DNA of 33,117 bases, from contig PKCZ01000030.1 of NCBI GenBank assembly GCA_002862405.1, positions 1 to 33,117 of the forward strand, read 5' to 3'. The translations under genes and the position numbers were made by a program. The notes under the pieces were generated by a model. The model saw only the letters and a program-made list of their open reading frames with translations. It was not told the DNA's origin and made no database searches. Position 1 is the first letter of the stretch; every line of letters starts with the position of its first letter. The stretch comes from Pseudomonadota bacterium. Its GTDB lineage: Bacteria > Pseudomonadota > Gammaproteobacteria > Pseudomonadales > Halieaceae. This document shows positions 1,446-21,960 of the stretch, one piece after another.

Positions 1446-2192
1446 ATGAAGTTGCGCGTTGAACTTGATTGGCGAACGACATTGGCCACATCTTTACTGC
1501 TGCCAACCCTACTCAGTCTAGGTTTTTGGCAGCTCGATCGAGCAGGTGAAAAAGCTGCGCTGATCGACCGCTTGGAGGCGAGACGAGCGCTACCCGCGAT
1601 TACCCCTCAGTCAGCACTGCGGTTGCCGGGCGATGAGCGCGCAGATCGGCAGGTGGTCATGGACGCCCGTTTTACACCCAATCGTTTTATCTTGCTGGAC
1701 AACCGACTGCGTGGTGGCATATTTGGTTATGAGGTTGTCGCCTTCGCCGAGGTAGACCAGCTCGCGGTGGCACTGAATCTTGGTTGGGTTCGTGGCGATC
1801 CCTCGAGACAAACATTGCCCACTATTGTCTTACCTAGTGGCGTGCAGACAGTGAGTGGGCGGCTCTACCAGCCCAGTGGTGAGGCCTTTATGTTGGGTGA
1901 AAACCGGCTGCCGGCGCGGTTTCCGAGCGTGGTGCAACAGCTGACGTTGTCCGCTTGGCAAGATGAGCTTCAAAGGCGGCTCGACCAACCGATATTTCCG
2001 CTTGAGATCCGTGTTGATGAGTTTGAGTCGGTCGCGTTCGATGCGACTTGGGCGATTGTTAATCAAACACCGGCAAAACATCAGGGTTATGCCGTCCAAT
2101 GGTTTACTATGGCGGGTGCTTTGGGTTTGGCCTTTATTTTTCGTAGTACCAATCTACGGCGTTGGCTGCGGCATCGCATCGGTAGACCTTAA
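1446..2192 (+). CDS. SURF1 family cytochrome oxidase biogenesis protein
   Basis: 248 aa; N-terminal TM with LGFWQLDRAGEKAAL, LLDNRLRGGIFGYEVV, LNLGWVRGDPSR, C-terminal TM: SURF1 pattern. Confidence 0.9.
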   Translation: MKLRVELDWRTTLATSLLLPTLLSLGFWQLDRAGEKAALIDRLEARRALPAITPQSALRLPGDERADRQVVMDARFTPNRFILLDNRLRGGIFGYEVVAFAEVDQLAVALNLGWVRGDPSRQTLPTIVLPSGVQTVSGRLYQPSGEAFMLGENRLPARFPSVVQQLTLSAWQDELQRRLDQPIFPLEIRVDEFESVAFDATWAIVNQTPAKHQGYAVQWFTMAGALGLAFIFRSTNLRRWLRHRIGRP

Positions 2193-2220
2193 TCATTGCG
2201 TTTCGCTGGGGGATAACTGA

Positions 2221-2934
2221 GTGACTCAACATACAGATCAGCGGGGCGGTCGCGCCATTTTGCTGCTCATTGCTGGCCTGCCCGTCACCATGATCTTGGC
2301 GGCGACCTGGCTTTGGTATTTTGTCGACCGCGGCGATATCGATATCGTGGGTGCGCTTGGAACGGCCAACAGCGGCGAGATTCTCAGCAATCCGGCGAAT
2401 ATTCGAAGCCGGTCTTTCACCGCCAGTGACGGAAGCGAGACCAGTCTCGACGCGCTGGAGCGAAAGTGGACCTTCATGGTCGTCAATTCTGGCGAGATAT
2501 GTGATGCCACATGTAGCGAGTTGCTCTACCTGACGCGGCAAATCCGAATCGCGATTGGTAGAGATTTCCATCGTATCCAGCGAGTCATGATGGTTGATCT
2601 TCCCGCGGATACTATTCGCATCCAGACGAGCACCGGTGCCGAGAGTGCACAAGAGCGTATTGAAGGGGGTGCTGTTACTGAGGCAATAGATAATGCTTCG
2701 ACCATCGCTGCTGCTGGCGAGACGCCGCTTCTAGACGCTATCGAAAGCGAGCATCCGGACGTCAGCGTCTGGCAAGCGGGTTCCGAGCCGGTGGTTCCAG
2801 AGCGGCATGCTGCTGACAGTGCGTGGTACCTCGTTGATCCCTCAGGCTGGGTCATGATGCGTTACTCCAGCGAGGTCAATTACAAGGACGTCATTGGCGA
2901 CCTCAAGTTCTTGCTTAAGAACTCTGGGGGTTGA
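2221..2934 (+). CDS. Membrane-anchored thioredoxin-fold-like protein with CxxxC motif (cytochrome oxidase locus hypothetical)
   Basis: 237 aa; one N-terminal TM, then KWTFMVVNSGEICDATCSELLYLTRQI with CDATC like SCO CPDVC, and a C-terminal WYLVDPSGWVMMRY strand pair. Confidence 0.7.
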   Translation: MTQHTDQRGGRAILLLIAGLPVTMILAATWLWYFVDRGDIDIVGALGTANSGEILSNPANIRSRSFTASDGSETSLDALERKWTFMVVNSGEICDATCSELLYLTRQIRIAIGRDFHRIQRVMMVDLPADTIRIQTSTGAESAQERIEGGAVTEAIDNASTIAAAGETPLLDAIESEHPDVSVWQAGSEPVVPERHAADSAWYLVDPSGWVMMRYSSEVNYKDVIGDLKFLLKNSGG

Positions 2935-3824
2935 GCATGAGTGAATCGATGTTAGCGCGCTGGCCTGATTTTCTAGAGCTGACAAAGCCTCGCGTCGTTG
3001 CTTTGATGCTCATAACCGCTGTCATTGGCATGTGTATGGCGGTCCCCGGCTTTGTGCCGTGGCAGCCGCTGGTTTTGGGCAATATTGGCATTGCCTTTTG
3101 TGCAGGTGCCGCGGCGGCAATCAACCATGTGGTCGACGAGCGTATTGATCAAAAGATGTCCCGCACTACGAATCGCCCTGTGGCACAAGGGAGGGTCAGT
3201 CAGTCGGAAGCGATTCTCTTTGCAACACTGCTGGCGATTCTTGGTACCGCGCTGCTTGCTGTCACGGTGAATTTACTGACCGCTGTTTTGACGGTGGCGA
3301 GCTTGGTCGGCTACGCCTTCATTTACACCATGTTTTTGAAACGTGCGACGCCACAAAATATCGTTATTGGCGGCCTTGCTGGCGCGGCACCGCCCCTGCT
3401 TGGCTGGACCGCAGTGACCGGTGAAATTCATGCGCACGGGCTGCTCTTGGCCCTCATCATTTTTGCGTGGACGCCGCCCCACTTCTGGGCCCTGGCCATT
3501 CACCGTAAAGAGGAATATGCAGCCGTCGGTATTCCCATGCTGCCGGTTACTCACGGTAACCGCTTTACGGCCCTGCATATTCTTCTTTACACCATACTGA
3601 TGTTTTTAATTACCTTGCTGCCTTACATCACCTTATTGAGCGGTTGGATTTATGCTGTTGCCGCTACGCTCTTGGGCCTACGGTTTTTGTACTGGTCGAT
3701 CGAGATTTTGCGTGAGAAAAATCCCGACGCACCCATGGCGACATTCAAATTTTCGATTACTTATCTAATGGTCCTGTTTATTGCCATGCTTGCTGATCAC
3801 TGGATATTAGGAACGCCGGTATGA
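2931..3824 (+). CDS. cyoE: Protoheme IX farnesyltransferase (heme O synthase); alternative ATG start at 2937
   Basis: UbiA-type polyprenyltransferase: LTKPRVVALMLITAVIGM, NHVVDERIDQKMSRTTNRPVAQG, APPLLGW, WTPPHFWALAI. Confidence 0.96.
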   Translation: MSMSESMLARWPDFLELTKPRVVALMLITAVIGMCMAVPGFVPWQPLVLGNIGIAFCAGAAAAINHVVDERIDQKMSRTTNRPVAQGRVSQSEAILFATLLAILGTALLAVTVNLLTAVLTVASLVGYAFIYTMFLKRATPQNIVIGGLAGAAPPLLGWTAVTGEIHAHGLLLALIIFAWTPPHFWALAIHRKEEYAAVGIPMLPVTHGNRFTALHILLYTILMFLITLLPYITLLSGWIYAVAATLLGLRFLYWSIEILREKNPDAPMATFKFSITYLMVLFIAMLADHWILGTPV

Positions 3825-4480
3825 CCCTTACTCAACAGCATCGTGTTGCTCTGACGGTTATTGCGATCCTTCTGGGTATCGCCATCACTGTGGCGGGTTT
3901 TGTACATCGTATTCAGCAGCCGCGCATCATGACGGTTTCGGAGATGAGGGCCAACGGACTGTTTGTTTTTGACACGCCGCGAGACTCGGGCAAGTTTGTA
4001 CTTACTAACCACAAAGGAACCGAATTCACTGATCAGAGCCTCGAGGGTGATTGGACGTTGCTGTTTTTTGGTTTCACGTACTGCCCTGATGTTTGTCCGA
4101 CAACACTGTCTTTCTTAGCCGAGCTGAAAGGCAGCTTGGAGGGCACTGAAGCGGCGTCGACCGATGTCGTCATGGTCTCGGTCGATCCGGCTCGCGACAC
4201 CGTAGAGCAGCTGTCGACGTACGTGCCCTACTTTCACCCAGAGTTCTTGGGTGTCACCGGTGATTTCCCGGATATTCTCAGTTTTGCACGTCGGTTCAAC
4301 GCGCCCTTTCGTAAGGTCACTATGGAAGATGGCAGTTATCAAATGGACCACAGTGCGAACGTTGTTTTGATCAATCCCAAGGGCGACTTTCACGGCTTCT
4401 TTCGCGCCCCGCTCGACCTGGCCAAAATGAAAGTGACGCTTCGCTCTGCCCAGTTCTACTGGAGTCAACAACATGACTGA
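3821..4480 (+). CDS. SCO1/SenC family copper chaperone
   Basis: 219 aa; GDWTLLFFGFTYCPDVCPTTLSFLAEL, SVDPARDT, and the YQMDHSANVVLINPKG region with conserved His. ATGA overlap with cyoE. Confidence 0.95.
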   Translation: MTLTQQHRVALTVIAILLGIAITVAGFVHRIQQPRIMTVSEMRANGLFVFDTPRDSGKFVLTNHKGTEFTDQSLEGDWTLLFFGFTYCPDVCPTTLSFLAELKGSLEGTEAASTDVVMVSVDPARDTVEQLSTYVPYFHPEFLGVTGDFPDILSFARRFNAPFRKVTMEDGSYQMDHSANVVLINPKGDFHGFFRAPLDLAKMKVTLRSAQFYWSQQHD

Positions 4481-7205
4481 TGCCTCGCGCCTTATCTTGG
4501 TTGATGGCTCGTCTTACCTGTTTCGCGCTTTTCATGCGCTGCCACCACTGGCCAATAGTAAGGGGTTGAACACGGGTGCAGCTAAAGGCGTGATTGGCAT
4601 GTTGAAGCGCCTGCAGGCGGATAATCCGAATGACCAGTTGGTTGTTATTTTCGATGCTAAAGGCCCGACTTTCCGAAACGAAATCTATTCGGAGTACAAA
4701 GCCAATAGGCCGCCCATGCCCGAGGAGCTTCGGGAACAGATTGAACCTATTCACAATGTCATTCGAGCGATGGGCCTGCCACTAATATCGATCTCGGGCG
4801 TTGAAGCTGACGATGTAATCGGCACATTGTCGGAGACGGCCACGGCGGAAAAGCGGCCAGTGCTGATTTCCACGGGTGACAAGGACATGGCACAGCTCGT
4901 GAATGACTACGTGACCTTGGTCAACACCATGACTCAGGTTGTTCTGGACCGCGATGGCGTCGTCGAGAAGTTTGGCGTGCCACCCGAGCTCATCATCGAT
5001 CTGCTGGCCTTGATGGGTGACTCGGTAGATAACATTCCCGGCGTTGCTGGCGTGGGCGAAAAAACGGCCCTTGCCCTACTCCAGAACCTGGGCGGTATCT
5101 CAGACATTTATTCTCAACTAGATCGTGTAGCAGAGCTCCCTATTCGCGGCGCTAAGTCTCTAGGTGAGAAGTTATCTGCCAGCAAGGAAATGGCCGAGCT
5201 GTCCTATGTGCTTGCCACTATTAAGACAGACTGTGAGCTCGCCTTGTCAGAGTCTGATCTTCGTTCATCATCACCCGACACCGATCGCTTGATTGAGCTC
5301 TATCGTGATTTGGAATTTAAGTCCTGGCTGGATGAGCTACTGAGCCTGGGTCTTTTTGCGGATAGCCCCGCAGAGCCGGTACCGAGCCAAGTTTCCGATC
5401 TTTCAGTCGTTACGATCACCGACCAAGCAGTGTTTGATAGCTGGCTATCTCGCCTGGAGGCGGCACCACTGTTTGCCTTTGATACAGAGACGACCAGTTT
5501 GAATTACATGCAGGCGGAAATTGTGGGTCTGTCATTTGCGATTGAACCTGGCGAGGCGGCTTATGTGCCTCTCGCCCATCTAAATCCTGGGCTTGAAGGT
5601 CAGCTCGACCGCGATCGGATTCTCGACCAGATGAAACCATTACTGGAATCTGACGCCGTTAAAAAAGTAGGTCAGCACCTTAAGTACGATGCGAACGTAT
5701 TGGCGAATCATGGCATTACGTTGCGGGGAATAGCGCACGATACGATGCTCCAGTCTTACATCATTGATGCGGTGGGCAGTCGACACGACATGGGCAGCTT
5801 GGCTTTAAAGTATTTGGGTCAGCGTGTCATTTCCTTTGAAAAGGTGGCGGGCAAGGGCGCCAAGCAGGTGTCTTTTGACCATGTTGACATTGAGCAAGCG
5901 GCAGCCTACGCCGCTGAAGACGCCGATGTCACATTGCGTTTGCACGAGGCACTCATGCCCAAGCTCGAGGCTGAGGCATCGCTCAATGAGGTATATCAGC
6001 GGCTGGAACTACCGCTCGTGCCCGTTCTATCAAAAATTGAACGCAATGGCGCCTACGTCAGCATTGATAAGCTTCGGGCGCAAAGCCATGAAATAGCTAT
6101 CCGTTTAGCTGAGCTTGAGTCACAAGCATGTGAGCTGGCGGGACAGCCATTTAATTTGGCATCGCCCAAGCAGCTGGGTGAGATTTTATTCGAGAAGCTT
6201 GAGCTTCCGGTCATCAAAAAGACGCCCAAGGGTGCGCCCTCTACGGCGGAAGAGGTCTTGGTCGAACTGGCGAATGACTACGAGTTACCGGCAGTGCTCA
6301 TTGAGCATAGAGGTCTCGCTAAATTGAAGTCGACCTATACCGATAAGCTACCGGAGATGGTCGATACGCGAACCGGGCGCGTCCATACCTCCTACCATCA
6401 GGCGGTGACGGCGACAGGCCGTTTATCCTCAAGTGATCCCAACCTGCAGAACATCCCCATCCGGACGAAGGAAGGCCGCCGTATTCGGCAAGCCTTTATT
6501 GCACCTGAGGGACGGAAGATCGTCGCCGCTGACTATTCGCAAATTGAGCTTCGGATTATGGCTCACCTCTCGAGTGACGCAGGTCTGCTACATGCGTTTG
6601 CGAACGAGCTGGATGTTCACAGTGCAACGGCGGCAGAGGTTTTTGATGTTTCCTTAGATGAGGTCACCACAGACCAACGCCGTAAAGCTAAAGCGATCAA
6701 CTTTGGTTTGATATATGGCATGTCAGCATTTGGCCTGGCGAGACAGATTGGCGTTGCTCGGGGTGAAGCCCAAGAGTACATCGATCGATATTTTGCTCGC
6801 TATCCGGGGGTCGCTGATTATATGGATGCGACGCGTGCCATTGCTCACGAGCAGGGCTACGTTGAAACGCTGCTGGGTAGACGGCTTTATCTACCGGAAA
6901 TCAATGCGAGAAATAAGCAGCGACAACTGGCTGCTGAGCGAACAGCGATCAACGCGCCGATGCAGGGCACGGCAGCAGACATCATTAAATTAGCCATGAT
7001 CGACGTGGATGCCTGGCTGACCGAGACAGCACTCGACGCGAAGATGATCATGCAGGTTCACGACGAACTGGTATTTGAAGTTGCTGACGAGGCATTTGAA
7101 ACACTCTGTAACAACGTTGCCGAGCGTATGGCCAATGTTATTGAGCTTCAGGTTCCTCTGCTCACCGAGGTGGGGGTGGGCGCGAACTGGGATGAGGCGC
7201 ACTAG
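4473..7205 (+). CDS. polA: DNA polymerase I
   Basis: 910 aa; N-terminal 5'-nuclease (LILVDGSSYLFRAFHALPPL), 3'-5' exonuclease (FAFDTETTSLNYM), polymerase motifs (ADYSQIELRIMAHLS, KAINFGLIYGMSAFGLARQ, MQVHDELVFEV). Confidence 0.98.
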   Translation: MTDASRLILVDGSSYLFRAFHALPPLANSKGLNTGAAKGVIGMLKRLQADNPNDQLVVIFDAKGPTFRNEIYSEYKANRPPMPEELREQIEPIHNVIRAMGLPLISISGVEADDVIGTLSETATAEKRPVLISTGDKDMAQLVNDYVTLVNTMTQVVLDRDGVVEKFGVPPELIIDLLALMGDSVDNIPGVAGVGEKTALALLQNLGGISDIYSQLDRVAELPIRGAKSLGEKLSASKEMAELSYVLATIKTDCELALSESDLRSSSPDTDRLIELYRDLEFKSWLDELLSLGLFADSPAEPVPSQVSDLSVVTITDQAVFDSWLSRLEAAPLFAFDTETTSLNYMQAEIVGLSFAIEPGEAAYVPLAHLNPGLEGQLDRDRILDQMKPLLESDAVKKVGQHLKYDANVLANHGITLRGIAHDTMLQSYIIDAVGSRHDMGSLALKYLGQRVISFEKVAGKGAKQVSFDHVDIEQAAAYAAEDADVTLRLHEALMPKLEAEASLNEVYQRLELPLVPVLSKIERNGAYVSIDKLRAQSHEIAIRLAELESQACELAGQPFNLASPKQLGEILFEKLELPVIKKTPKGAPSTAEEVLVELANDYELPAVLIEHRGLAKLKSTYTDKLPEMVDTRTGRVHTSYHQAVTATGRLSSSDPNLQNIPIRTKEGRRIRQAFIAPEGRKIVAADYSQIELRIMAHLSSDAGLLHAFANELDVHSATAAEVFDVSLDEVTTDQRRKAKAINFGLIYGMSAFGLARQIGVARGEAQEYIDRYFARYPGVADYMDATRAIAHEQGYVETLLGRRLYLPEINARNKQRQLAAERTAINAPMQGTAADIIKLAMIDVDAWLTETALDAKMIMQVHDELVFEVADEAFETLCNNVAERMANVIELQVPLLTEVGVGANWDEAH

Positions 7206-7215
7206 GCCGTAGCCG

Positions 7216-7911
7216 TCAGTCGGCGAGATCATCCTCGATCGCGGTAACGTCGTCCTCGGGGAGTGTCAGCCACCAGTTGAGTGTTCGTTGTAGTTCGTCC
7301 ATGCCCTCATGGTTGTGTGAAGAGAACAGCTGTATGGAGATCCACCGTTCGTGTGCTTTGAGTTCCTTTTTAACACTGAGAAGCGCAGTTTTTGCAGGCC
7401 CTCTTTTGAGCTTGTCGCACTTGGTCAGTAAAATGTGCACCGGCATTTCGCTCACCGCAGCCCATTCGATCATCTGTCGATCGTAATCCTTGAGTGGATG
7501 TCGGATGTCCATCAACAGAATCAGCCCTTTCAGACTGCGCCGATATTGTAGATAGCGCTCGAGCTGTTTATTCCACTCTTCTTTGACTTTCAGCGGCACC
7601 TTGGCAAAGCCATAACCCGGGAGATCAACAAGCCGAATCTGGTCTGCGACAGTAAAAAAGTTGATGAGTTGTGTTCTGCCCGGCGTACGAGAGGTTCTTG
7701 CCAACTTGCTGTTGCCAGTGAGGGCATTGATTGCGCTCGACTTGCCGGCATTACTTCGCCCGGCAAAAGCCACTTCGCAGCCAAAGTCTGCAGGGGCGTT
7801 ATTCAGTGCGCTTGCAGATTGTAAAAATTCAGTGCTTTTAAAATGAAGCTTTTGAAACTTATTGGGCGTATTAATGACAGTGATCCACGTACAGTTTGGT
7901 GTTTTCGACAC
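7216..7911 (-). CDS. engB: Ribosome biogenesis GTP-binding protein EngB/YsxC (YihA)
   Basis: GRSNAGKSSAINALTGN (G1), DLPGYGFAKV (G3), LLTKCDKL (G4); next to polA as in other gammaproteobacteria. Confidence 0.95.
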   Translation of the reverse strand: MSKTPNCTWITVINTPNKFQKLHFKSTEFLQSASALNNAPADFGCEVAFAGRSNAGKSSAINALTGNSKLARTSRTPGRTQLINFFTVADQIRLVDLPGYGFAKVPLKVKEEWNKQLERYLQYRRSLKGLILLMDIRHPLKDYDRQMIEWAAVSEMPVHILLTKCDKLKRGPAKTALLSVKKELKAHERWISIQLFSSHNHEGMDELQRTLNWWLTLPEDDVTAIEDDLAD

Positions 7912-14846: not shown

Positions 14847-16121
14847 CTACAACGCGCGAACAAGAATTTTTGAATTTCGATCTATTTTTGCCTTCTGTTT
14901 CTCGGAATCGGGCAGCGCTTCGGGTGATGACATAGCGAAGCCAAGCTCCTGAAACCAATGACCGGTTTGTGTTGTACGCACATAAACGCGCTCAAGCTTG
15001 GCTTGCTTCGCACCGTCAATGAGCGCTGCCACGAGCCGTTCACCGTGTCCCGAGTCCCTGTAATCCGGATGGGTGGCAACACTTGCGATTTCCGCGATGT
15101 TGTCCGCACGGTTGTCCAACAAGGCGGCGCAGGCGATAACCCGGCTGTCTTTTGTGATGACGGTGAATTTATCGAGGCTGCGTTCGATCTCCTCATTGGA
15201 CTTATCTGCAAGAACGCCTGCTTGCTGTAACGGTCGGATGAGCTCGAGTATGCCTGCCAAGTCGTGTGCCTCGGCACCTTTGATTTGCTCGTATTCGTCT
15301 GGCGATATCAAGGTGCCAATACCATCGTGTGTATACAGTTCTTTAAGCAGGCCGCCATCGAGTGCGTAGCTAATGAGGTGGGATCGAGGTACGCCCGAGT
15401 CACAGGCATCACACGCGAGCATGAGCGCCTCTCTTTGCCCCCGGCCAACGATTTCGAGTACTTGGCGAGCAGCATCAACGGTAAGTTGCCGCTGCAGTTT
15501 CCCGTCCGTGCTTTCGATGCCATCGAAGTCCGACATGATGATTAACTTGTCCGCGCCTAGGCTCCGGCTAACCGCAGCCATCACGTCCAATGCGTCTAGG
15601 GTGAATACTTCTCCAGCAGGGGAATGACCCAGCGTAGAGACCAGACAGATAGCGGAGCCATCTAGCGCGAGTGTCATGCCAGCAACGTCAACATGGCGAA
15701 CCAAACCACGGCCTGATCGATCGACCCCGGCGATGACACCTAAGGGCCGGGCAGTGATGAAGTTACCAGAGATTACTCTGAGTCGCGCATTGTGTAGAGG
15801 GGAGTTGGGCAGCCCCATCGAAAACATCTGCTCAATATGGGTGCGTTCTGCCAACGTATCAGCCACCGCCTGATTCACGGCGATGGGCGTCAAGGACTGT
15901 GAGTTAAAGGTGTTTAGCTCGTGAACCACCACCAGCCGCACACCCAGTGAATGCATGAGCGCGAGGTCGTGCACCACATTGATGAAATTCTCGTCGCTGG
16001 CGGCGCCGCAGCGAAGCCCCACGACCACAGTGGTTCCTCGATGCAAATTAATGTACGGCGCGGTGTGCCGGAACCAATCAATGGTGTCTGTCGAATCTGT
16101 CACGATCGCCGCCCTTAGCAC
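14847..16121 (-). CDS. argA: Amino-acid N-acetyltransferase (N-acetylglutamate synthase, ArgA type)
   Basis: 424 aa; N-terminal amino-acid-kinase-like domain and C-terminal GNAT domain (ASVATHPDYRDSGHGERLVAALI). Starts DTIDWFRHTAPYINLHRGTTVVV. Confidence 0.93.
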   Translation of the reverse strand: MLRAAIVTDSTDTIDWFRHTAPYINLHRGTTVVVGLRCGAASDENFINVVHDLALMHSLGVRLVVVHELNTFNSQSLTPIAVNQAVADTLAERTHIEQMFSMGLPNSPLHNARLRVISGNFITARPLGVIAGVDRSGRGLVRHVDVAGMTLALDGSAICLVSTLGHSPAGEVFTLDALDVMAAVSRSLGADKLIIMSDFDGIESTDGKLQRQLTVDAARQVLEIVGRGQREALMLACDACDSGVPRSHLISYALDGGLLKELYTHDGIGTLISPDEYEQIKGAEAHDLAGILELIRPLQQAGVLADKSNEEIERSLDKFTVITKDSRVIACAALLDNRADNIAEIASVATHPDYRDSGHGERLVAALIDGAKQAKLERVYVRTTQTGHWFQELGFAMSSPEALPDSEKQKAKIDRNSKILVRAL

Positions 16122-16290
16122 CGCAGGCCTAGAAGGATGCTGAATTCCCGTTGCAAGAGCAGATTGATTCGCGTGCTAGCTGCAAGCATTTCCATTAAAA
16201 AATTCCGTGACAAGGCAATTGCCTGAGATTCATTGCGTGGGTGGTGACGCGGTAAAACCACCGCGCCACAACGGAGTGGGAGTATATTAG

Positions 16291-16982
16291 GTGTTTAAAG
16301 TCGTTCCTAGCCTAAGCGCGCTCCTTCAACGCTTCTTCACGCGCCTGGCACAACGAAAGATTCATATTTTATCGACCAACATGATGGGAGGTCGCCTGTA
16401 TGAGGTCGATTTAAGGTTACGACCTCACGGTGATTCAGGTCTTGTGGTTACTTCTGCTCAGGCGTTGGAGCGTTATTTAAAGCACGATGCATGGACTTGG
16501 GAACATCAGGCGTTGTTGCGGGCGCGCCGGAACTAGTCACACAGGTGGAGGCCCTGCGGGCGGAGGTATTGTCGACACGTCGTGACAATGTGCCGGTCGC
16601 CGATGACGTCACAGCAATGCGGCAAAAAATGCGGGAACAATCGCTAGCTGCTGGCGATGCGTCGCATCGAGTAGCGCTGAAATACGGGCGCGGCGGTATT
16701 GTCGATATCGAATTTGTGGTCCAATACCTGGTACTTAAACATGCGGCGCACTATCCCGACGTTGGGCGTTGGTCAGACGTGGTCCGGATACTCGAAGCCC
16801 TCGAAGCCTGCAGAATTTTAAGTTCAAGTGTCGCAAATAGCCTTAAGGAAGCGTATCTAGGCTTGCGGTCGTCAGTGCATCGAGCCGCGGTATCGAACGC
16901 ATCTGACGGTGACTCGGTTGAAACCGATGACTTAATGAAGCAGGCCAGTGCAGTGTGCACGCGTTTGCTGCCGAATTTGTAA
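16291..16982 (+). pseudogene. glnE: Remnant of glutamine synthetase adenylyltransferase (5'-truncated, frameshifted C-terminal fragment)
   Basis: ORF 16291-16536 (FFTRLAQRKIHILSTNMMGGRLYEVDLRLRPHGDSGLVVTSAQALERYLKHDAWTWEHQALLRAR) continues in another frame as ORF 16491-16982 (VVAGAPELVTQ...KYGRGGIVDIEFVVQYLVLKHA...). Both match the GlnE C-terminus; the large N-terminal part is missing. Confidence 0.9.
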
Positions 16983-17023: not shown

Positions 17024-17950
17024 ATGGACCTGTCCAAGCTGACCGGATCTATCTGGCTAGACGGCGAGCTCATCCCTTGGGAAGAGGCCAAAGTGCATGT
17101 GTTAACGCACACCTTCCACTACGGTCTCGGTGTCTTTGAGGGCGTCAGAGCCTACGCTACCGAGGGTGATAGCACCTGTATCTTTCGGTTGAACCAACAC
17201 ACTGACCGACTCTTTCGATCCGCAAAAATTTTGCAGATGGACATGCCTTACGACAAGGATACCTTGAACGAAGCGCAGCGCGAGGTGGTTCGTGTCAATG
17301 GTCTAGACGAGGCGTATATCAGGCCCATGTGTTTCCTCGGTTCAGAGGGCATGGGACTTCGTGCGGATAACCTAAAAACCCACGTTATGGTGGCCGCCTG
17401 GTCATGGCCTTCATACATGGACCCGGAGGCGCGGGACCGCGGTATTCGGGTACGTACCTCGAGCTACACCCGACATCACGTGAACATTACCATGTGTAAA
17501 GCAAAGGCAAACGGTAACTACATAAACTCTATTTTGGCCCTGCGCGAAGCGCTTGACGCAGGCTGTGAAGAAGCGCTTCTTCTGGATAATGAGGGCTACG
17601 TGGCAGAAGGTAGTGGCGAGAATGTCTTTATAGTGCGAGACGGGACGATTTATACGCCTGAACTCACATCCTGTTTAGAGGGAATTACGCGCGACAGCAT
17701 CTTCAGAATTGCGGCTGATCTTGGCTATCAGATTAAGGAACGAAGAATCACCCGTGATGAGGTGTACGTGGCTGATGAGGCGTTCTTTACGGGTACTGCG
17801 GCCGAGGTAGTGCCCATCCGCGAGCTCGATGGCCGAGCAATTGGTTCCGGTAGCCGTGGCCCTCTGACAGAGCAACTGCAATCGATTTATTTCGATACGG
17901 TTCGCGGTCGCGAGTCACAATATGGAGCGTGGCTTACACCGGTGAGTTAA
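17024..17950 (+). CDS. ilvE: Branched-chain amino acid aminotransferase
   Basis: 308 aa class IV aminotransferase: HTFHYGLGVFEGVRAY, NGNYINSILALREAL, EGYVAEGSGENVFIV, FTGTAAEVVPIRELDGR. Confidence 0.96.
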   Translation: MDLSKLTGSIWLDGELIPWEEAKVHVLTHTFHYGLGVFEGVRAYATEGDSTCIFRLNQHTDRLFRSAKILQMDMPYDKDTLNEAQREVVRVNGLDEAYIRPMCFLGSEGMGLRADNLKTHVMVAAWSWPSYMDPEARDRGIRVRTSSYTRHHVNITMCKAKANGNYINSILALREALDAGCEEALLLDNEGYVAEGSGENVFIVRDGTIYTPELTSCLEGITRDSIFRIAADLGYQIKERRITRDEVYVADEAFFTGTAAEVVPIRELDGRAIGSGSRGPLTEQLQSIYFDTVRGRESQYGAWLTPVS

Positions 17951-20889: not shown

Positions 20890-21960
20890 ATGAGCCACAG
20901 TAACTCTGCCCCTTTTTCTTACCCTGCTGAAGCGCTGCGTCCGACGGTGGATTACCTACTGGCATCACAGCGAGAGAGCGGCGAGATCCCCTGGTTTGAC
21001 GGTGGACACACCGACCCCTGGAATCACACAGAGGCCGCAATGGGTCTCAGTATTGCCGGAGAGTTCATGGCCGCCGAGCGTGCCTATGACTGGCTTGCCA
21101 GAGAGCAGTTAGACGATGGCAGTTGGTGGGCCTCTTACGTTAATGGCACGCCAGCCAATGTCACCCGGCGCGAGACCAATTATGTCGCCTACATTGCTAC
21201 CGGTGTATGGCATCACTTTTTGATCAGCGAGGATCGAGCATTTCTTGAGCGACTGTTTCCAACCGTTGAGCGCGCGATCGATTTTGTCGTGTCGATGCAG
21301 TCGGAGCACGGTGAAGTAGCATGGGCTTGCGATACCTGGGGTGAAGCGATGGACGATGCGCTCGTGACCGGAAGTAGCTCGGTCTATAAGTCGCTAGAGT
21401 GTGCACTGCATATCGCAAGAATAGTCGGTGTCTTAAAGCCCCAGTGGCGTGAAGCAAGACGCAGGCTCGGCACGGCGCTACGACACCGGCCCGAGCGGTT
21501 TGACCGAAACTGGGAGAGTAAGGCGCGCTATGCGATGGACTGGTTTTATCCCGTCCTTGCGGGTGTTTTTCAGGGTGAGCAGGGGCTGGAACGCATCAAT
21601 GCGCGCTGGCATGAATTTGTGGAGCCCGGCTTGGGTTGTCGGTGTGAAAATCATCAACCCTGGGTCACGGTGGCCGAGTCCTGTGAATTAACTATGGCGC
21701 TTCTCAGCGTGGGCGATGTCGTCAGAGCTCAGACGCTCTTTGACGGCCTATGGCAATGGCGCGACGAGGCGGGTGTTTTCTGGACCGGCTACCAGTTTGA
21801 AGAAGACGTCTTATGGCCGTTAGAGAAGCCGACCTGGACCTCCGGGGCCGTATTATTGGCTGCGGATGCCTTGAGCCAGTACACGACAGCCAGCCGCCTA
21901 TTTATCGAGGTTGATAGCAGGGAGCAGCCCAAGCTCGAACGACGTCACCGCCAGGCTTAG
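20890..21960 (+). CDS. Alpha/alpha-toroid protein, prenyltransferase/squalene-cyclase-repeat-like, function unknown
   Basis: 356 aa with three QW-like repeats: VDYLLASQRESGEIPWF, YDWLAREQLDDGSWWAS, IDFVVSMQSEHGEVAWA. No canonical DXDD cyclase motif seen. Confidence 0.7.
   Translation: MSHSNSAPFSYPAEALRPTVDYLLASQRESGEIPWFDGGHTDPWNHTEAAMGLSIAGEFMAAERAYDWLAREQLDDGSWWASYVNGTPANVTRRETNYVAYIATGVWHHFLISEDRAFLERLFPTVERAIDFVVSMQSEHGEVAWACDTWGEAMDDALVTGSSSVYKSLECALHIARIVGVLKPQWREARRRLGTALRHRPERFDRNWESKARYAMDWFYPVLAGVFQGEQGLERINARWHEFVEPGLGCRCENHQPWVTVAESCELTMALLSVGDVVRAQTLFDGLWQWRDEAGVFWTGYQFEEDVLWPLEKPTWTSGAVLLAADALSQYTTASRLFIEVDSREQPKLERRHRQA

Follow-up and report, generated by a model that had tools for sequence, protein, structure and literature searches.

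Adenylylation of glutamine synthetase (GS), by which GlnE turns the enzyme off under plentiful nitrogen, is a textbook example of covalent enzyme control. To our knowledge, GSII and GSIII are classes of GS for which adenylylation is not known. Bacterial GSII has usually been reported from actinobacteria and rhizobia (PMC9397018), and the GSII of Rhodopseudomonas palustris is reported to escape adenylylation (PMC10100968). In the literature, we found no report tying the loss of glnE to GSII, and none on the GS of Luminiphilus. The stretch of DNA analysed here (33,117 nucleotides, hereafter the window) is contig C14 of the draft genome G000 (2.53 Mb, 209 contigs, 93.7% complete), which belongs to a marine, Luminiphilus-like member of the Halieaceae. 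Its nearest named relatives are Halieaceae and Luminiphilus metagenome genomes, and genome sizes within its genus range from 1.3 to 3.6 Mb. The reference loci used for comparison were L032, L033 (identical in sequence to G017, and accompanied by L027 in the alignment of the 16-bp deletion described below), and L028 from G001.

Of glnE, the window retains only the last ~223 codons (codons ~714–936 of 936), which are divided between two reading frames. The first part (16327..16536, + strand) contains codons ~714–780 and encodes the RLYEVDLRLRP region of the adenylylase half without the DxD motif. Its frame is open from a GTG at 16291 and ends with a TAG at 16534–16536, and the corresponding 81-residue ORF (16291–16533, +) matches the Pfam family GlnE (PF03710) with an E-value of 2e-27, over profile positions 171–237 of 252 only. 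The second part (16512..16982, +) is in a different frame, contains codons ~782–936 and the native stop, and has 90% protein identity to residues 782–936 of the G017 GlnE. It overlaps a 163-residue ORF (16491–16982, +) with a GlnD_UR_UTase domain (PF08335, E 1.5e-8). Both flanking genes are intact. On the left is argA, encoding N-acetylglutamate synthase with AA_kinase and GNAT domains (14847..16121, −), which is the neighbour in the relatives too; on the right is ilvE, encoding the branched-chain aminotransferase (17024..17950, +; PF01063, E 6e-58), which has 98–99% protein identity in L032 and L033. Elsewhere in the window, positions 20890–21960 (+) encode a 356-residue protein without a Pfam match, adjoined by methyltransferase and glycosyltransferase genes, and a search of the window gave no Rfam matches.

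Two lesions distinguish the window from the intact loci. The former glnE upstream region between argA and glnE (16122..16326) aligns with L033, L032, and G001 up to CGCTCCTT. Beyond this point ~2.22 kb is missing relative to L033 (L033 positions 2068–4286): the gap opens ~80 bp before the start codon and extends to codon ~713, and it takes in the start and ~712 codons. The deletion junction (16325..16327, +) is flanked by collinear sequence on both sides, and the two ends that meet at ~16326 share almost no overlapping sequence. The deletion took out the deadenylylase half completely and stripped the adenylylase half of its DxD motif; the catalytic motif of the latter is seen in L033 (YESDLDLVF) and falls inside the stretch missing from the window. 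The second lesion (16510..16515, +) was located by alignment with L032, L033/L027, and L028. Sixteen base pairs are missing at ~16510, and two direct GCGTTG repeats bound these 16 bp in L032 and G001. This is a slippage-type deletion, separate from the ~2.22-kb one, and the frame shift that it causes leads to the TAG at 16534. The remnant resembles GlnE (NCBIfam NF008292, Pfam PF03710/PF08335) in its family, in its place between argA and ilvE, and in its nucleotide sequence, ~94% identical along the 3′ end that survives. However, the features of a functional GlnE, namely two nucleotidyltransferase halves, a GSDxDL-type motif, and a frame open through the C-terminus, are absent from the window copy, which has lost one half, the DxD of the other, and its frame, and cannot work as GlnE. 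From what is established about nucleotidyltransferases, the loss of the DxD and of the whole deadenylylase half leaves the remnant catalytically dead.

In L032, L033/G017, and G001, a single uninterrupted glnE of ~936 codons is located between argA and ilvE and has ~94% nucleotide identity to the remnant; the gene order ilvD–argA–[glnE]–ilvE is matched in G017 and G001. These comparisons bear out the original prediction that a truncated C-terminal glnE remnant in two frames lies upstream of ilvE, with argA 170 bp away. Its expectation that the fragment lacks the catalytic motif and should be inactive agrees with the position of the DxD inside the deleted stretch, and the decay in situ that it proposed is supported by the complete 936-codon orthologues in the same argA–ilvE interval of the relatives. 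The loss was also suggested to be recent, which agrees with the dN/dS of the remnant and the changes in its upstream region given below.

The upstream region (16122..16326) contains 10 changes found only in the window, against 1, 3, and 6 changes of this kind in the sisters L033, L032, and G001. On its terminal branch, the remnant has a dN/dS of 0.43, compared with 0.11–0.40 for the same stretch in the intact sisters. The difference is non-significant (Fisher test of N/S counts, p 0.30), which leaves decay after the loss statistically unsupported. Together, the dN/dS and the upstream changes are consistent with a recent loss of glnE. A scan for promoters and terminators gave nothing above chance, and the retention of the 3′ end for an ilvE promoter is an idea without positive support. 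The background rate of broken genes was estimated from 53 ORFs of G017 traceable in a ~450-kb sample of the G000 sequence, among which glnE is the sole truncated or frameshifted one. Four other ORFs were flagged for in-frame stops, all near an ORF end only: the stop precedes the likely start in glnD and in a short ORF, one ORF has two stops in its first 28 residues, and one has a stop 12 residues from its end. Two G017 ORFs with end-proximal in-frame stops in G000, a start-proximal pair and one close to the 3′ end, are located on contig C12 (L255, positions 76–1197 and 6556–7431).

The original prediction had tied the loss of adenylylation control to there being no other glnE in the genome. 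In the 93.7%-complete assembly, there is no second GlnE (PF03710) match beyond the remnant, and a 2.27-kb DNA probe representing the lost stretch of glnE gave no match in G000 and no orphan 5′ half. G000 retains intact glnD and two PII genes, ntrB and ntrC adjoining glnA, and an intact GlnA that keeps the target site DKDLYDLP, including the tyrosine whose retention the original prediction had left to be checked. Within the GS control of G000, the GlnE arm alone is missing. The GlnA of G000 resembles other GSI-beta enzymes in scoring above the family cut-offs and in keeping the target site, but differs from those systems in that the genome has no enzyme for the target tyrosine, and in a glutamate-to-glycine change just past the loop (DLPAGEA instead of DLPAEEA). 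The GlnA gene (L213, positions 3312–4718, contig C33) has four unique substitutions, which include this change and a histidine-to-tyrosine change in the KYCVHNVAHAYG stretch.

Contig C102 of G000 encodes a full-length, 337-residue GSII (glnII). The protein matches eukaryotic-type GS structures (PDB: 3fky, 4bax) end to end, with E-values of ~1e-92 to 1e-95, and matches Streptomyces GSII too. It aligns with the GlnII model NF041605 over positions 1–332 of 333 (E 7e-113), at 377 bits, which is under the 500-bit equivalog cut-off. The protein is thus a eukaryotic-type GS, like the GSII of rhizobia and Streptomyces, but a divergent member of the class that occurs in a marine gammaproteobacterium. 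The genes for GSII of G000 and G001 are found in different genomic places from those of the group of G020 and G021, and have only ~75% DNA identity to them; GSII was therefore either acquired separately or moved. Beside glnII in G000, an MFS transporter gene (L205, positions 42–1369, contig C102) is split by a frameshift, whereas it is one 459-residue ORF in G001. Near the variable GSII site, the otherwise collinear regions downstream of glnA contain insertions of ~13 kb in G062 (L271–L272, contig C2) and ~7 kb in G063 (L267, contig C11).

A GlnE match is present in 48 of 57 genomes of the genus, and the remaining genomes are partly incomplete assemblies. A loss was therefore counted only where the argA–ilvE interval is assembled, which gave eight confirmed cases (G000, G020, G021, G062, G064, G113, G119, and G028). 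Genomes without a glnE match in which the ilvE region is unassembled (G014, G008, G049, and G059, as well as G117 and G122 from another genus) were not counted as losses; G019, G048, and G063 break off at contig ends. In G021, G062, and G064, the argA–ilvE interval is only ~340 bp long and has no 3′ part of glnE; two of the three have a possible 44-codon N-terminal trace. In G020, the interval contains a stop-riddled 3′ remnant. G113 and G119, from another genus of Halieaceae, have only a 3′ glnE stub upstream of ilvE, which is open over ~190 codons in G113 and interrupted in G119. In G028, a member of another family, there is no glnE match and the argA–ilvE interval holds other genes. In a tree built from ilvE, argA, and ilvD, the losses within Halieaceae are spread over at least four distinct lineages, all of which have glnE-bearing sisters, and the losses in G113 and G119 may be one shared event. 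Halieaceae have lost glnE on at least four occasions, with a fifth loss outside the family, and what usually persists is a decayed 3′ stub next to ilvE. The GSI target loop of G113 is altered to DKDLYHLP (L212, positions 2067–3494), and a search for glnD in the G113 genome did not find it. The two independent lesions, the loss in at least four Halieaceae lineages, and the host GSII go beyond the original prediction.

GSII is present in all seven confirmed glnE-less Halieaceae (G000, G020, G021, G062, G064, G113, and G119), and the only GS of G028 is the product of a 760-codon GSIII-like gene (L186, contig C20), with no GSI above the cut-off. An alternative GS thus occurs in 8/8 confirmed glnE-less genomes and in one of the six glnE-bearing genomes that were typed. 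The exception is G001; no GSII was found in G006, G010, G016, G017, and G063, of which the absence from G017 is weakened by a contig end near the GSII site, while G063 has the MFS gene that neighbours this site but no GSII. The association of glnE loss with an alternative GS has a Fisher p of 0.003 by genome and 0.015 by independent event, for 14 related genomes without correction for kinship or for the pattern having been noticed post hoc. Because G001 keeps glnE alongside GSII, GSII does not force the loss. An intact GSI is missing from three of the eight glnE-less genomes. In G020, the GSI glnA is a decayed N-terminal remnant of ~179 codons (L198, positions 2242–2747, contig C6) beside an intact glnII and directly followed by ntrB, and in G119, which is 99% complete, a search for GSI did not find it. 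G020, G119, and the GSIII-bearing G028 share with G000 the loss of glnE and the alternative GS, but their GSI is decayed or was not found whereas that of G000 is kept, and G000 is thus apparently at an earlier stage.

We consider it probable that the locus is a recent glnE pseudogene formed in situ, whose loss was tolerated because of a second, unmodified GS, GSII. A different origin of the pattern, in which the organism has an intact glnE and ~2.2 kb and 16 bp were lost during assembly of a low-coverage or strain-mixed stretch, is improbable. The division of the draft into 209 contigs and the frameshift in the MFS gene on C102, which points to lesions or errors elsewhere, would allow it. However, it would have to account for two separate lesions ~190 bp apart in one gene with intact, collinear flanks, the lack of an orphan glnE 5′ half in the assembly, the lack of further truncation among the 53 sampled ORFs, and the independent decay of the glnE locus in G020 and others.

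The remnant may also be real but owe nothing to GSII, having decayed at random in a small marine genome for which adenylylation is unneeded in steady, nitrogen-poor water. The genome sizes within the genus and the recurrence of glnE loss are in keeping with this, but we regard it as rather unlikely, as an alternative GS accompanies each of the eight confirmed losses, the typed glnE-bearing genomes of like size mostly have no GSII, and the glnE-less G113 and G119 have larger genomes (3.8 and 5.2 Mb). That the 163-residue C-terminal ORF is instead kept as a small functional protein, such as a PII- or GlnA-binding fragment, is very unlikely. Although the 3′ part persists in G000, G020, G113, and G119 (G113 still has ~190 open codons) and the G000 remnant shows a dN/dS under 1, the copies of G020 and G119 contain stops, a 3′ part is missing from the G021 group, and the G000 ORF has no native start; the closeness to ilvE also explains why the 3′ end is retained.

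In the reading of glnE as a pseudogene whose loss GSII made tolerable, the ~2.2-kb deletion removed the promoter-proximal part of the gene, the deadenylylase half, and the catalytic DxD, and the 16-bp deletion broke the frame of the rest. The cell would then neither adenylylate nor deadenylylate GSI, and GlnA would stay unmodified and active, with its control left to its amount, set through PII, NtrB, and NtrC, and to feedback inhibition. Glutamine would also be made by GSII, beyond the control of GlnE, and adenylylation of GSI would no longer limit the flux. GSII, which is not known to be adenylylated, probably makes adenylylation control dispensable, and in a lineage that has it the loss of glnE would be tolerated and probably favoured or unopposed.

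More tentatively, GSII could set off an ordered dismantling of GS control in marine gammaproteobacteria, in which GlnE goes first and GSI follows, while PII, GlnD, and NtrB/NtrC persist. The proposed stages are G001, with all components and GSII; G000, with a freshly wrecked glnE; G021, G062, and G064, with glnE deleted and GSI kept; G020, with glnE and GSI both decaying; and G119, in which no GSI was found. This series is suggestive, as it compares separate lineages and does not follow one lineage through time.

A single glnE pseudogene is ordinary, whereas its recurrent, GSII-associated loss is moderately interesting and can be tested. The repeated losses, each with a second GS, would serve as natural experiments on the conditions under which adenylylation control pays, and would reveal a probable sequence of steps in the dismantling of a regulatory cascade. 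For inference from marine genomes, the presence of PII and GlnD genes does not imply an adenylylated GS.
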